Assembly (NCBI GenBank): GCA_913052635.1
Contig: CAJXDE010000009.1
Location: 1 to 38,935, forward strand
Source: an uncultured Halieaceae bacterium
GTDB taxonomy: Bacteria; Pseudomonadota; Gammaproteobacteria; Pseudomonadales; Halieaceae
Direction of reading: 5' to 3'
Length of the DNA: 38,935 nt
Shown piece by piece: positions 7,131 to 38,935 of this stretch. A program made the translations under genes and the position numbers. Under the pieces are notes generated by a model that was not told the origin of the DNA, ran no database searches, and was given only the letters and a program-made list of their open reading frames with translations. Positions within the stretch are counted from its first letter, which is position 1, and every line of letters starts with the position of its first letter.

Positions 7131-8477
7131 TTGAACTCACCCGCCAACTTCCCCACCAAGACAGAGCGTCTTGAATTTGCCCTCCGCTCGGGCACGCTGG
7201 GCGATGTCGCGGGTATTTTGGCTGAGATGTCACCCGGTGACGTCGCTTATTTGATCAGCTCCTCACCCCCCGACTATCGCGCGGTGCTGCTGGGCCTTCT
7301 CGAACCGGAGCAGGAATTACTGGTCGTCAATGAATTGCCAGATGAGCTCCGCAATGCCGTGTTGGCGGACCGGGAGCCCGAGGCACTGGCCGAAATTGTC
7401 GGGCAGTTGGATGACGACGATGTCGCCGACATCCTCCATGAGTTGCCCGATGAGGTGACCGGTCAAGTGTTGGCGATCATGGACGAGCAGTACCGTCAGC
7501 GCCTTCAGAAGGTATTGAGCTTTTCTGATGACGTTGCAGGTGGTTTGATGAGCACCGACACCATCACCATTCGCGCAGATCTGACGCTGGATGTGGTGCT
7601 GCGCTACCTCCGCCGGCATAAGGAGCTCCCGCCCAACACGGACAGTCTGATCGTGGTGACCCGCAACGATCGGTTTGTGGGACTGCTGGCCATCAGCACC
7701 GTACTCGTGTCCGACCCCGCCGTCTCGGTGCGGGAGATGATGATCACCGACCAGGAGGCCATTGCCGCCGATACATCCGCGACCGAGGTAGCGCGGCGAT
7801 TTGAGCGAAATGACTGGATTTCGGCACCGGTGGTCGATGATGACGGCAAGCTGCTCGGACGGATTACGATCGACGACGTGGTGGATGTCATTATGGAGGA
7901 GGCGGATCACTCCCTGACCTCGCTCGCCGGTCTGGCGGAAGAGGATACCTTTGCGACGGTATGGCAGTCAGCGCCGCGGCGCGCGATGTGGCTGGGTGTC
8001 AATCTAGGTACCGCTTTACTGGCCTCCTCGGTGATCAACCTGTTTCAGGACACCATTGAGAAAGTGGTCGCGCTGGCGGTGCTGATGCCTATTGTGGCCT
8101 CAATGGGAGGGATCGCCGGCACTCAGAGTCTGACGATCCTGATTCGTGCCATGGCGATGGGTCAAATCAATCATCGCAATGAGTTGTGGCTTATCGGCCG
8201 GGAATCGCTGGTAGGGCTCCTCAATGGACTGCTCTGGGCCGCGGTGATTGCCACCACCGCGTCGCTGTGGTTTGGCGACCCGATGCTGGGCGTCATTATT
8301 GCCTGCGCCATGTTGATCAACCTGGTCACGGCGGGCGTGACAGGCGCAGGTCTCCCTGTCGTGCTGCGTAAACTACACATTGATCCTGCGTTGGCAGGTG
8401 GCGTACTGGTCACCACCGTTACCGATGTGATGGGTTTTCTGGCTTTCCTTGGACTAGCCACCGCATTTTATGCGTGA
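7131..8477 (+). CDS. mgtE: Magnesium transporter MgtE
   Basis: 448 aa; MgtE N domain, CBS pair, five-TM C domain (MPIVASMGGIAGTQSLTILIRAMAMG); TTG start with AAAGGAGG Shine-Dalgarno. Confidence 0.93.
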   Translation: MNSPANFPTKTERLEFALRSGTLGDVAGILAEMSPGDVAYLISSSPPDYRAVLLGLLEPEQELLVVNELPDELRNAVLADREPEALAEIVGQLDDDDVADILHELPDEVTGQVLAIMDEQYRQRLQKVLSFSDDVAGGLMSTDTITIRADLTLDVVLRYLRRHKELPPNTDSLIVVTRNDRFVGLLAISTVLVSDPAVSVREMMITDQEAIAADTSATEVARRFERNDWISAPVVDDDGKLLGRITIDDVVDVIMEEADHSLTSLAGLAEEDTFATVWQSAPRRAMWLGVNLGTALLASSVINLFQDTIEKVVALAVLMPIVASMGGIAGTQSLTILIRAMAMGQINHRNELWLIGRESLVGLLNGLLWAAVIATTASLWFGDPMLGVIIACAMLINLVTAGVTGAGLPVVLRKLHIDPALAGGVLVTTVTDVMGFLAFLGLATAFYA

Positions 8478-34068: not shown

Positions 34069-35589
34069 CTAGCTTGCGACAAGCGCGCGGCTAATCGCCG
34101 CCCGCGTCTCCTCGGGCTGAATCACCGCGTCAATCTCGAGATAACTGGCGGCCTCAACTGCACGCCCTTTGTCATACATCTCGGCGAGTAACTTGTCATA
34201 TAAGGCCTGGCGCGCTCCCTCATCAGGCGCCCCGGCAAGTTCCTGACGAAAGCCCAGATGAACGGCCCCCTCTAAACCCATGGCACCAAACTCACCCTGC
34301 GGCCAGCTCACGGCATAGCGCGGTACCTCGAAGGATCCGCCGGTCATCGCCATGGCGCCGAGCCCATAAGCACGGCGCAAAAAGATCGCGACAATAGGTT
34401 GGGTGAGCGTGGCGCCTGCAATAAAGAGATCCGACATCAACCTCGGTGCACCCCCGGCCTCGCTTTCAGGGCCAACCATAAATCCGGGCGTATCAATCAG
34501 AGACACCACTGGCAGGCGCCATCTTTCCGCCAGCTGGTAAAGGGCCGCCGCCTTGGTGGCAGACTCACCATCAATCGCGCCACCCAGATGACGACAGTCA
34601 CTCGCTAGTACTGCAACGGCACGACCCTCGACCCGGGAGAGACCTGTGATAATCGCGCGCCCCATGTCCGGTCGCGTCTCGATGAAAGACTCCGTATCGA
34701 AGAGATGTCGGATAATCTTGCGGACGTCGAAGGCATAGCGGCGATTAGTGGGCATCAGTGCGGCCAACTCTGACTGATCAGCTGCTTGCCAGTCCGCCAC
34801 TGAGCCCTGTACACAGGCGAGCACACGTTTCGCCATCAGTGTCGCCTCGGCCTCGTCGACGACCACAATATCCACCACCCCGTTTTCGCGATGCACTGAG
34901 ACCGGGCCAATGTCCTGCGGCTTCCAGCTACCGAGGCCACCGCCCTCGATCATTGCCGGCCCCGCCATACCAATACAGCTCGCCTCGGTGGCAATGCGAA
35001 GATCCGCAGCACCGAACAGCGCCGCGTTGCCGGCAAAGCAGTAGCCATGATTCACAGCTATGCGGGGTACCCGCCCTGCCAATGCCGCCCAACGATGAAA
35101 GGTGGGTACATTTAGCCCCGCCATCGACACCCACACATCGGTATCACCCGGTCGACCACCGCCGCCCTCGGTGTAAATCACGATGGGCAAGTCATCCTGC
35201 TCGGAGATCTCCAGCAGCCGATCAATTTTGCGATGATGGAAGTATCCCTGAGTGCCCGCTAGCACCGTGTAATCATTAATGATCAGCGCCGTTTGGCTCT
35301 GCTCAATGGGAAACAGCTCAGCGTTGACGGCGCCGACCGCCGTGATCACGGCATCCGCGGCGGTCTCTGCGTACAGCGCGTCACCCTCGCGCCGCGTCCG
35401 CTGGGCCGCAACCGCCAACTGACCGTACTCCGACACGGCGCCGCCATCGGTGAGATCAGCGAGGTTCTCCCGCGCAGTGCGCCCCCCACGGGCATGCCGC
35501 TTATCGACCGCCGCGGCGCGCGCCTCGTCAGTCGTCTTCGCAAGCCTGTTCTGTAACCCAGCGTAGGGGTCGTTTTGTTGGTCACTCAT
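34069..35589 (-). CDS. Acyl-CoA carboxylase carboxyltransferase subunit (PccB/AccD-like), no biotin carboxylase partner in window
   Basis: 506 aa; ARGGRTARENLADLTDGG, ALIINDYTVLAGTQGYFHHRKIDRLLEISEQDDLPIVIYTEGGGGRPGD, LPVVSLIDTPGFMVGPESEAGG. Confidence 0.88.
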   Translation of the reverse strand: MSDQQNDPYAGLQNRLAKTTDEARAAAVDKRHARGGRTARENLADLTDGGAVSEYGQLAVAAQRTRREGDALYAETAADAVITAVGAVNAELFPIEQSQTALIINDYTVLAGTQGYFHHRKIDRLLEISEQDDLPIVIYTEGGGGRPGDTDVWVSMAGLNVPTFHRWAALAGRVPRIAVNHGYCFAGNAALFGAADLRIATEASCIGMAGPAMIEGGGLGSWKPQDIGPVSVHRENGVVDIVVVDEAEATLMAKRVLACVQGSVADWQAADQSELAALMPTNRRYAFDVRKIIRHLFDTESFIETRPDMGRAIITGLSRVEGRAVAVLASDCRHLGGAIDGESATKAAALYQLAERWRLPVVSLIDTPGFMVGPESEAGGAPRLMSDLFIAGATLTQPIVAIFLRRAYGLGAMAMTGGSFEVPRYAVSWPQGEFGAMGLEGAVHLGFRQELAGAPDEGARQALYDKLLAEMYDKGRAVEAASYLEIDAVIQPEETRAAISRALVAS

Positions 35590-35710: not shown

Positions 35711-35787
35711 GGCTACGTAGCTCAGCTGGTTAGAGCACAGCATTCATAATGCTGGGGTCGGTGGTTCAAGTCCACCCGTAGCTACCA
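35711..35787 (+). tRNA. tRNA-Met, elongator (anticodon CAT)
   Basis: Cloverleaf: GGCTACG...CGTAGCT-A-CCA (G1:U72); CAGCA-TTCATAA-TGCTG anticodon arm; GGTGG-TTCAAGT-CCACC T arm. Confidence 0.95.
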
Positions 35788-35806: not shown

Positions 35807-35986
35807 TTACGATTTGCCGTTAGACGTATCGTCTAGAGTTGCCTTGCGTTTATTGGGTAACAAGATTCGCTTCACGAGGCCATCCACTCCCGTTTCACGA
35901 CAAGTGAACAGCTTCGACGCCAGCCAGCCGAATAACTGAGCTTTGGTCTCCAGATAACGTTGTTTTAACTCTGAACGTTGAGTCAC
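35807..35986 (-). CDS. Uncharacterised 59-aa small ORF immediately downstream of the molybdopterin enzyme
   Basis: GTG at 35986 directly after the TAG stop (35989-35987) of the upstream gene, GGAG 8 nt upstream; MTQRSELKQRYLETKAQLFGWLASKLFTCRETGVDGLVKRILLPNKRKATLDDTSNGKS*; absent from the supplied track because it is just under 60 aa. Confidence 0.5.
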   Translation of the reverse strand: MTQRSELKQRYLETKAQLFGWLASKLFTCRETGVDGLVKRILLPNKRKATLDDTSNGKS

Positions 35987-38173
35987 CTACGCCGCTCCGA
36001 TGGCATCGGGTTTTGCGGCTTTCACGACCCTCCCCGGAAAACCTTTGAAATGGGGGATGCCCTGCTCGTGATCCAGAAGCTCGTCGTCGTCCGAGCACAG
36101 CACCGCATCGCTCGACAAAAACGCGCCGGCCAGCGTTTCGGTATCTGTCGCCTCCGGGTACCACCAACCATGTGGCACCCGCAGATGCCCCGTTTTCATA
36201 TTGGGCTGCACTGAAAGCTCCGCGCTCACTGCACCGTAAGCGGTTTGCAGCTCAATCCACTCACCGTCTGTGAGGGCTTCTCGTTTCGCATCATCAGGGT
36301 GCATATAGATCCTGGGCACCGGACACCGGTCTCTGAGCTCTTTAATGTTGCGTTGCCCAGTCTGAAAAAACGGATCCTCGCGCACACCGTTGAATACCAA
36401 GTAGGGGAACTCCTCTGACGTCGCCGGTCCCGGGCGGAAGTAAGGCAAGGGATCGAAACCCAGATCCCCCAGCACCGAGGAGGACAGCTCGACTTTGCCT
36501 GAAGGTGTGGCAAAGCCGGTCTTGCGATACTTGCGATAGCGCACGGGTGGAATCTCCATGAAACCCTGCGCCTCGAAATTTGAGAAGCTGCGGCCGGAAC
36601 GCGACAAACGGTAGTCGAGCACCTCGTCATGGGTGGACCAGGGGAACCACTCTTCGAAGCCAAAACGCACGGCGAGATCCCGCCAGAATTGGTAGCTGTT
36701 ACTGGCCTGCTCGGGCGGTTCTGCAACCTTCTGGGAGAGCCCGAGTCGCGTGGTCCAGCTCCAGGTGTCTGCAATGTGATTGCGTTCCGAGAAGGCATCG
36801 CCGGGTAGCACATAGTCCGCCATCATGGCGGTCGGCGTCATAAATAGCTCATGGGCAACGATCAGGTCCTGGTTCAACATCGCCTTATGAATCTGGTGTT
36901 GATTGGGATAGCTCATGAGTGCGTTGTTACCGAGCGCAAAAAACGCTTTGATCGGATACGGATCCTCATAGGCCATAGCACGAAACACCTCGCTCGGGTT
37001 CGCCATATGGCAGCCCATCACGATATCGGCGTAGGGATATCCCCAGACTTTTTCCGTAGGCGCCTTGAGCATCTCGGCGACCCGATACGTATAGGCGGGG
37101 TGCTTTTCATATCCCAGCTGTTTGGCCTTTTGATCATCAGAGAGCACATCGTGAAGTGCCAGTTCGGACTCAGGAATCATGTCTGGATTGAAGCCGCCCA
37201 GCGTTTCCCCCCCCACGACATCCAAATTGCCGGTCACCGCACGCAAAATCGAGTGCAAGCGGATCGCAGACGTCGACGAAATTTGCATATCGGTGATGGG
37301 CGTCCAGGGAATGATGGCCCCGTCGGCCGTCGCATAGAGGCGCGCGGCCTCTGCAATTAGCGCCTGATCGACGCCTGTGATTGCTGACACCCTCTCAAGT
37401 GGATACTCGTCGACACGTGCCTTGAGTTCATCGAATCCCGTGCACCACTTGGCCACAAATTTCTTATCGTGAAGTCCCTCGTCGAAAATCACTTTCAGCC
37501 AGCCCAGGCACATCGCTGCGTCGGTGCCCGAACGCAGTCTCAGATGCACATCGGCCACCTCTGCCTGTTCCGATACACGGGGATCAAGCACGATGACCTT
37601 GGCACCCCGTGCCCGTGCGGCTTCGATCATGTTGTAGATCGGCGTCCAGGAATGCTTCTTAGGATTGTGGCCGAACAACACGATGCAGTTGGTGTTCTGG
37701 AAGTCGCCCATGGGGAACCAACCATAGGTGAGGCGGTTGATAGCGGCCGTGTTACCCGCGCAGAGCGAGACGCCGCTGATCCAGTTTGGCGCGCCCAACA
37801 GATTCATAAAGCGCCGATCTGCGGCTTGCGTCGTCTGGGTATTCCATCCCGACGTCGACACCGCCATCCCTTCAGGTCCGCACTCGTTGACCACTTTCTT
37901 CAGACGCTCGGCGATCTCGTCCATCGCCTGCTCATAGCTGATCTCTTGCCAGCGATTCTTGCCGCGTTCACCGACTCGCTTCAGGGGCACGCGCAATCGA
38001 TCGGGCGCATTATGTATGCTCGGCGCTGCGACTCCTTTGAAGCAGATATTCTTGGCCAACAGGGGGTTGTCGTGCGCAATGACGCGGGTCACACGGCCAT
38101 CTTCTGACTCGGTTCTGACTTGGCAGCCGATGTCACAGATCGAGCAGATCGAGTAACCGGTTTTTGTGGTCAT
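35987..38173 (-). CDS. Molybdo/tungstopterin bis-MGD enzyme of the DMSO reductase superfamily, acetylene-hydratase-like
   Basis: 728 aa; N-terminal CSICDIGC...ICFKG [4Fe-4S] motif, RRFMNLLGAPNW.SGVSLCAGNTAAINR with putative Cys metal ligand, FMTPTAMMADYVLPGDAFSERN, C-terminal molydopterin dinucleotide-binding domain; no Tat signal. Confidence 0.9.
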   Translation of the reverse strand: MTTKTGYSICSICDIGCQVRTESEDGRVTRVIAHDNPLLAKNICFKGVAAPSIHNAPDRLRVPLKRVGERGKNRWQEISYEQAMDEIAERLKKVVNECGPEGMAVSTSGWNTQTTQAADRRFMNLLGAPNWISGVSLCAGNTAAINRLTYGWFPMGDFQNTNCIVLFGHNPKKHSWTPIYNMIEAARARGAKVIVLDPRVSEQAEVADVHLRLRSGTDAAMCLGWLKVIFDEGLHDKKFVAKWCTGFDELKARVDEYPLERVSAITGVDQALIAEAARLYATADGAIIPWTPITDMQISSTSAIRLHSILRAVTGNLDVVGGETLGGFNPDMIPESELALHDVLSDDQKAKQLGYEKHPAYTYRVAEMLKAPTEKVWGYPYADIVMGCHMANPSEVFRAMAYEDPYPIKAFFALGNNALMSYPNQHQIHKAMLNQDLIVAHELFMTPTAMMADYVLPGDAFSERNHIADTWSWTTRLGLSQKVAEPPEQASNSYQFWRDLAVRFGFEEWFPWSTHDEVLDYRLSRSGRSFSNFEAQGFMEIPPVRYRKYRKTGFATPSGKVELSSSVLGDLGFDPLPYFRPGPATSEEFPYLVFNGVREDPFFQTGQRNIKELRDRCPVPRIYMHPDDAKREALTDGEWIELQTAYGAVSAELSVQPNMKTGHLRVPHGWWYPEATDTETLAGAFLSSDAVLCSDDDELLDHEQGIPHFKGFPGRVVKAAKPDAIGAA

Positions 38174-38322: not shown

Positions 38323-38935
38323 ATGACCGACTACGATCCCCTCGCCGCGTTGAGCGATATCCATACAAAGCGGGGATATCTGCTGCCCCACCACGGCCTG
38401 ATGGCGATTTCGACACCGCATCTGCTGGAGCGTTACGACTCACTCTACTCCGCGCTTGCGCTTGAGGAGAGACATCTCAGCCGTCACGCCCACGAGTTTG
38501 TGTGGCTAGGTGTGTTGATCAGTTGTCAGGAGTCCCTAGGAAGCCATCACGTTAAACGTTTCGTGGATGCGGGGGGCGATGCCGCGCATCTTGGCCTCGC
38601 CACCGCAATCAGCGCCATGGCTAAAGGCAGCGAGGGCTATCTGTTTGTTGAAGATCATTGGGTGCCCCATCTCCCCACTGCCAACCCACGCGAGCAGTAT
38701 CTCGCCGCGTTTACACAGCTGATCGGCCCCGTGCCGCCCGCATTGGCACACATGACAGCCTGTGCGGTGCATACCTGTTCAGGTAACTGGCGAGCTCTCA
38801 AGTGGCAAATTGAAGCGGCCTATCAGGTTGGGGTAAACGAATTGGAATTGGCTGAAGCACTCTCGCTCGCCATGTTCCCCGGCAGCGTGCCTTACTATGT
38901 GCGCGCCGCGGAGGTCTGGCGACAGCTGATCGTTG
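38323..38935 (+). CDS. Carboxymuconolactone decarboxylase/AhpD-like protein (3' truncated by window edge)
   Basis: ATG 38323 after AGGGAG; MTDYDPLAALSDIHTKRGYLLPHHGLMAIST...ACAVHTCSGNWRALKWQIEAAYQVGVNELELAEALSLAMFPGSVPYYVRAAEVWRQLIV; open to end of window. Confidence 0.65.
   Translation, partial: MTDYDPLAALSDIHTKRGYLLPHHGLMAISTPHLLERYDSLYSALALEERHLSRHAHEFVWLGVLISCQESLGSHHVKRFVDAGGDAAHLGLATAISAMAKGSEGYLFVEDHWVPHLPTANPREQYLAAFTQLIGPVPPALAHMTACAVHTCSGNWRALKWQIEAAYQVGVNELELAEALSLAMFPGSVPYYVRAAEVWRQLIV

Follow-up and report, generated by a model that had tools for sequence, protein, structure and literature searches.

Does a lone molybdopterin gene in an uncultured Halieaceae bacterium encode a hydratase akin to acetylene hydratase (AH), as an earlier note had proposed from the letters, or an oxidoreductase? 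Most enzymes of the DMSO reductase family are redox enzymes, which counts against a hydratase. Within the 38,935-nt stretch of DNA analysed here (the window), the gene occupies 38173 to 35987 of the minus strand and is an intact ORF with an ATG start, encoding a protein of 728 aa (P0001). The earlier note had the ORF right, as real and intact, but did not give its strand. A full-length gene 97% identical to it is present in an independent genome (L007), and relatives are encoded in 307 candidate stretches of the genome collection. Going by the closest relative (AG-894-J17), whose copy of P0001 is 97% identical, we judged the host, a MAG, to be marine.

Family and fold of P0001

Three Pfam domains, Molybdopterin (PF00384), Molydop_binding (PF01568) and Molybdop_Fe4S4 (PF04879), scored above their cut-offs in P0001. 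With its molybdopterin, MGD-binding and Fe4S4 domains, P0001 is a member of the DMSO reductase (MopB) superfamily. Within this superfamily it fell far under every NCBIfam cut-off listed, including those for formate dehydrogenase (TIGR01591; 279 bits against a curated cut-off of 666), PhsA (275 against 694) and NasC (192 against 1100). In a phmmer search of all PDB chains, the best match was AH (2E7Z; E = 1.7e-195, residues 8–711, ∼46% identity), 130 orders of magnitude ahead of the second-best, the Psr/Phs structure 2vpw (E = 1e-64). In agreement, an AlphaFold model of P0001 (built from 34 homologues; mean pLDDT 90) superimposed on 2E7Z in Foldseek with TM scores of 0.94/0.95 and an rmsd of 1.9 Å, whereas other folds, redox members included, reached a TM of at most 0.81 among the matches listed. 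The predicted overall fold of P0001 is that of AH.

To place P0001 among its relatives, we used a quick tree and a careful tree of 41 rows, in which the root position and long branches are unsure. In the careful tree, a clade of 21 rows with 100/100 support contained P0001 and its homologues together with 2E7Z, the actinobacterial sequence L107 and a gene from a Rhodococcus opacus plasmid. Inside this subfamily, AH and L107 were sister to the P0001 clade and the R. opacus gene fell outside both. Tat-type Coriobacteriia-like sequences (L115–L119 and L124), which stand in for the catechol dehydroxylases they resemble, lay outside the AH clade; formate dehydrogenases and Psr/Phs were outside the subfamily in the quick tree, in agreement with the careful one. 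The alignment and tree that the earlier note had called for therefore do not group P0001 with formate dehydrogenases, nitrate reductases or Psr/Phs, and its position within the AH subfamily is strongly supported by sequence. As AH-like sequences are already known to be widespread (PMC10100899), the family itself is no news; the P0001 clade is a separate, uncharacterised branch of it.

Active site and substrate pocket

Active-site residues were compared across 82 homologues, comprising 66 close ones (t1; >62% identity, P0001 counted in) and 16 more distant ones (t2; ∼55%). AH residues follow the literature numbering (PDB chain numbering + 3). Cys9, Cys12, Asp13, Ile14, Cys16, Cys46 and Lys48 were invariant in 82/82 homologues, as were Cys141, Gly143, Asn144, Trp179 and Trp293. 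In the alignment of P0001 with 2E7Z, the motif CSICDIGC (38123..38146; minus strand, as for all residues here) provides the [4Fe-4S] ligands Cys10, Cys13 and Cys17 (AH Cys9, Cys12 and Cys16), the catalytic-type Asp14 (Asp13) and Ile15 (Ile14), and is followed by Cys44-Phe45-Lys46 (38036..38044; AH Cys46, Met47 and Lys48). The metal ligand of AH, Cys141, corresponds to Cys138 in the block Cys138-Ala139-Gly140-Asn141-Thr142 (37748..37762). Trp176 (37646..37648), Trp290 (37304..37306) and Trp471 (36761..36763) match Trp179, Trp293 and Trp472, the last being Trp in t1 and mostly Phe in t2. Arg598 (36380..36382; AH Arg606) is Arg in all 65 t1 sequences with a residue there (one has a gap) and in 16/16 of t2. 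Like the Pelobacter (Syntrophotalea) acetylenicus enzyme (2E7Z), P0001 is one soluble subunit of ∼730 aa, and the two have in common the [4Fe-4S] Cys motif, Asp13, Ile14, Lys48, Cys141, Trp179, Trp293, Trp472 and Arg606. These alignments bear out much of the earlier note: CSICDIGC, ICFK and SLCAGNTAAINR are all present, Asp14 and Lys46 pair with Asp13 and Lys48, Cys138 sits at the ligand position and the pocket Trp residues are retained.

Asp13 and Cys141 are described as subfamily-specific and strictly conserved, with Cys141 as the metal ligand, and Asp13 is essential in AH, where D13A is inactive and D13E is tolerated (PMC12096430). Outside the AH subfamily, position 13 is His, Arg, Tyr or another residue in most relatives. 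One such relative (L098) also carries Asp there, so this residue by itself is no proof of a hydratase. A distant AH relative on a plasmid of Rhizobium sp. CB3090 (L091, 6266-10181) lacks Asp13, lies beside genes for a ferredoxin, an FAD/NAD(P)-binding protein, an aldehyde dehydrogenase and MoaA, and is likely a redox enzyme just beyond the subfamily.

The pocket is where P0001 and AH part. We take the hydrophobic ring of the AH pocket to be Ile14, Ile113, Ile142, Trp179, Trp293 and Trp472; of this ring P0001 retains four members and replaces Ile113 with Trp110 (37844..37846) and Ile142 with Ala139. Both replacements occur in 82/82 homologues (Trp in 66/66 of t1 and 16/16 of t2), and Met140 of AH is Leu in the P0001 clade. 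At positions 113/142, AH has Ile/Ile and L107 has Tyr/Met, while the R. opacus protein has Leu at 142. An I142A variant of AH reportedly lost most of its activity in a mutagenesis study. Since two of the six pocket residues have changed throughout the clade, the substrate is predicted to be something other than acetylene. The earlier note had noticed the change to Ala, but overlooked the change to Trp, and had suggested a hydratase with a different or larger substrate. The placement with AH and both replacements fit a different substrate; 'larger' is too strong because Trp at position 113 adds bulk, and 'reshaped' is the safer word for the pocket. Whether the enzyme is of hydratase or redox type is read only from kinship and residues, and as two pocket residues differ from AH, the chemistry could differ too.

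On balance, P0001 is probably a hydratase-type member of the AH subfamily: cytoplasmic, stand-alone, equipped with bis-MGD (Mo or W) and a [4Fe-4S] cluster, and acting on an unsaturated substrate other than acetylene. Two pterin dithiolenes and Cys138 would ligate its metal, and Asp14 would activate a metal-bound water. The reaction would be the redox-neutral hydration of a multiple bond, or the reverse dehydration, in a small unsaturated and probably hydrophobic molecule that is not acetylene, for which Trp110 and Ala139 may reshape the pocket. With regard to the metal, the molybdate binder ModA was found in the genome of P0001; of 14 other carriers, 12 also had it (one under cut-off), and a WtpA-type tungstate binder reached its cut-off in 0/15 carrier genomes. 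ModA can also carry tungstate. The presence of ModA without WtpA leans towards Mo in P0001.

The retention of every AH catalytic residue would also suit a true acetylene hydratase, with which an aerobic marine bacterium uses or detoxifies trace acetylene. R. opacus DSM 44186, which we take to be an acetylene isolate (a soil strain from Tuebingen), bears an AH-subfamily gene (WP_120661552.1) on plasmid pRop44186_a (NZ_CP082159.1; L090, 8998-11358). Its product is 39% identical to P0001 and differs in having Leu at 142, but shares the subfamily, Asp13, Lys48, Cys141-x-Gly-Asn, Trp179 and Trp293. The gene adjoins those for the ferredoxin FdxA, an AurF-like protein and MoeZ, with insertion sequences either side. 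Acetylenotrophs that live aerobically are known, a Mo-dependent acetylene hydratase has been reported for R. opacus, and the enzymes with which aerobes convert acetylene have yet to be characterised (PMC7858054); the plasmid gene is a candidate for the R. opacus enzyme. Nevertheless, the invariant Trp and Ala in the pocket and the lack of an acetaldehyde-handling gene beside the P0001 gene make acetylene hydration by P0001 improbable. As one test of residues and one of context went against AH, we classed P0001 as an AH-subfamily enzyme and not as AH itself.

Genomic context and redox alternatives

The earlier note had found the window to lack a Tat signal, an FeS or membrane partner subunit and a maturation chaperone. 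This held, within a window that stops 762 bases past the start of the P0001 gene and so limits the search for partners there. We therefore turned to 79 homologous loci, and again no recurrent partner gene was found among neighbours within ∼1.8 kb. The genes that did recur encode regulators, namely TetR (seven members, one t1 set), MarR and HxlR (eight members, t2 set); other neighbours were of scattered families, with MobB near three t2 loci. A ferredoxin-motif ORF lay within 3 kb at 1/79 loci only, and a Tat signal or twin-Arg motif preceded the cluster motif at 0/79. In this the P0001 clade is unlike the AH genes published so far, most of which adjoin a gene for an FeS protein (PMC7858054).

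Two genes flank P0001 in the window, and both were considered as functional partners. On one side is a carboxyltransferase-domain gene (34069..35589, minus strand), and on the other a divergent CMD-family gene (38323..38935, plus strand; Pfam CMD, E = 8.9e-6) that runs off the window and whose ATG is inferred from homologues, the start being set by a conserved match in the congener G1023. Both were rejected, since the two are also adjacent to each other where a congener has no AH-like gene; the carboxyltransferase gene is probably no functional partner, as it occupies the same site in those congeners. The CMD gene is patchy within the genus. In L007, an antibiotic-biosynthesis-monooxygenase-domain gene (8087-8443) follows the CMD gene, beyond the point at which the window ends.

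These contexts bear on a second reading, in which P0001 keeps the AH-like fold and Asp while its Mo centre exchanges electrons with ferredoxin or another free carrier in the cytoplasm. An aromatic or hydrophobic compound might, for instance, be hydroxylated or reductively dehydroxylated. Beyond AH, the nearest characterised relatives are the catechol dehydroxylases of Eggerthella and Gordonibacter, AH-related bis-MGD enzymes with a Cys metal ligand and redox activity (PMC7028382), and sulfur is transferred by an AH-related module elsewhere (PMC9516567), so redox chemistry with a free carrier is possible. The ferredoxin and FAD/NAD(P)-binding protein genes beside the more distant Rhizobium relatives, the FdxA gene of R. 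opacus, and the P450 and Rieske oxygenase genes and hydrophobic-compound-type regulators among the neighbours of AH-like genes point the same way. However, no redox partner gene recurred at the 79 loci, and the P0001 clade is nested within AH-type sequences. Furthermore, the Tat-type look-alikes of the dehydroxylases have twin-Arg-type signals, Arg or Lys at position 13 and neither Trp179 nor Trp293, whereas P0001 has no twin-Arg motif or partner, falls outside that group and keeps Asp13, Trp179 and Trp293 as in the non-redox AH. We consider a redox function unlikely on this evidence, though it is the strongest competitor to hydration.

A third reading, some other non-redox or group-transfer reaction (a vinyl halide might be hydrolytically dehalogenated, an alcohol dehydrated or sulfur transferred), draws on the metallopterin-dependent ergothioneine synthase of Caldithrix abyssi, which shows that an AH-like fold can be adapted to group transfer. 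The N-terminal module of that enzyme is AH-related, as P0001 is, but it is fused to a cysteine desulfurase and found in strictly anaerobic hosts; the enzyme's reported identity to AH is 27% (PMC9516567). The invariant difference between the P0001 pocket and that of AH also speaks for such a reaction; yet neither a cysteine desulfurase domain (Pfam) nor another partner was found for P0001, and this reading is very unlikely.

One genome departs from the solitary pattern as a single case. G926 encodes two AH-subfamily paralogues 10 kb apart (L134, 5870-8308 and 15933-18158) in what looks like a catabolic cluster, where the other genes code for an SSADH-like aldehyde dehydrogenase, ActP-like symporter, acyl-CoA ligase and enoyl-CoA hydratase. 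One of the two (L133) has Gly at AH Ile14 and no equivalent of Trp472.

Occurrence and implications of the P0001 clade

The P0001 gene is accessory. An AH-like gene was found in 4/57 congeneric genomes, a lower bound since many of these genomes are incomplete. In the congener G034, the site between the carboxyltransferase and CMD genes is empty (G034:C15:62543-62954, L139, compared with 35936-38150 in the window) and retains the first eight codons (MTIQTGYA against MTTKTGYS in P0001). The deletion end points fall on an 8-bp CGAATAAC (35929..35936) and its near-repeat CGAGTAAC (38150-38157). Because first codons remain and the junction lies on this near-repeat, the gene was most likely lost by a microhomology deletion in the G034 lineage; original absence was rejected, as part of the gene was left behind. 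No remnant was found in the congeners G036 and G1023, which fits acquisition by the ancestor of a few species and later loss. Just downstream of the P0001 gene is a tRNA-Met(CAU) (35711..35787, plus strand), past which the flank in L007 differs and contains a restriction-modification-like stretch. Elsewhere, the Pseudomonadales MAG JALZVT01 has one member of each clade, t1 and t2 (L064 and L079), which suggests that the two clades differ in function. A t2 gene (L070) is also carried by a cultured strain, Zhongshania antarctica DSM 25701.

AH has been described as the only known non-redox Mo- or W-dependent enzyme, and is reported to be highly O2-sensitive and active only as W(IV) (PMC12096430). 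Such sensitivity sits oddly with the carriers of the P0001 clade, which are mostly marine and, going by record titles, apparently aerobic. We tentatively suggest, at lower confidence than for P0001 itself, that the whole clade may comprise oxygen-compatible Mo/W hydratases that use the Trp/Ala-reshaped pocket on alkynes, allenes or unactivated alkenes (not acetylene), in aerobic marine Gammaproteobacteria, Alphaproteobacteria, Acidimicrobiales and Myxococcota. As the catalytic residues of AH are kept while the pocket carries a fixed change, the clade offers a natural experiment on the role of those residues. Some of its hosts are culturable, and the clade would allow a test of whether hydratases of this type can handle other substrates and oxygen.
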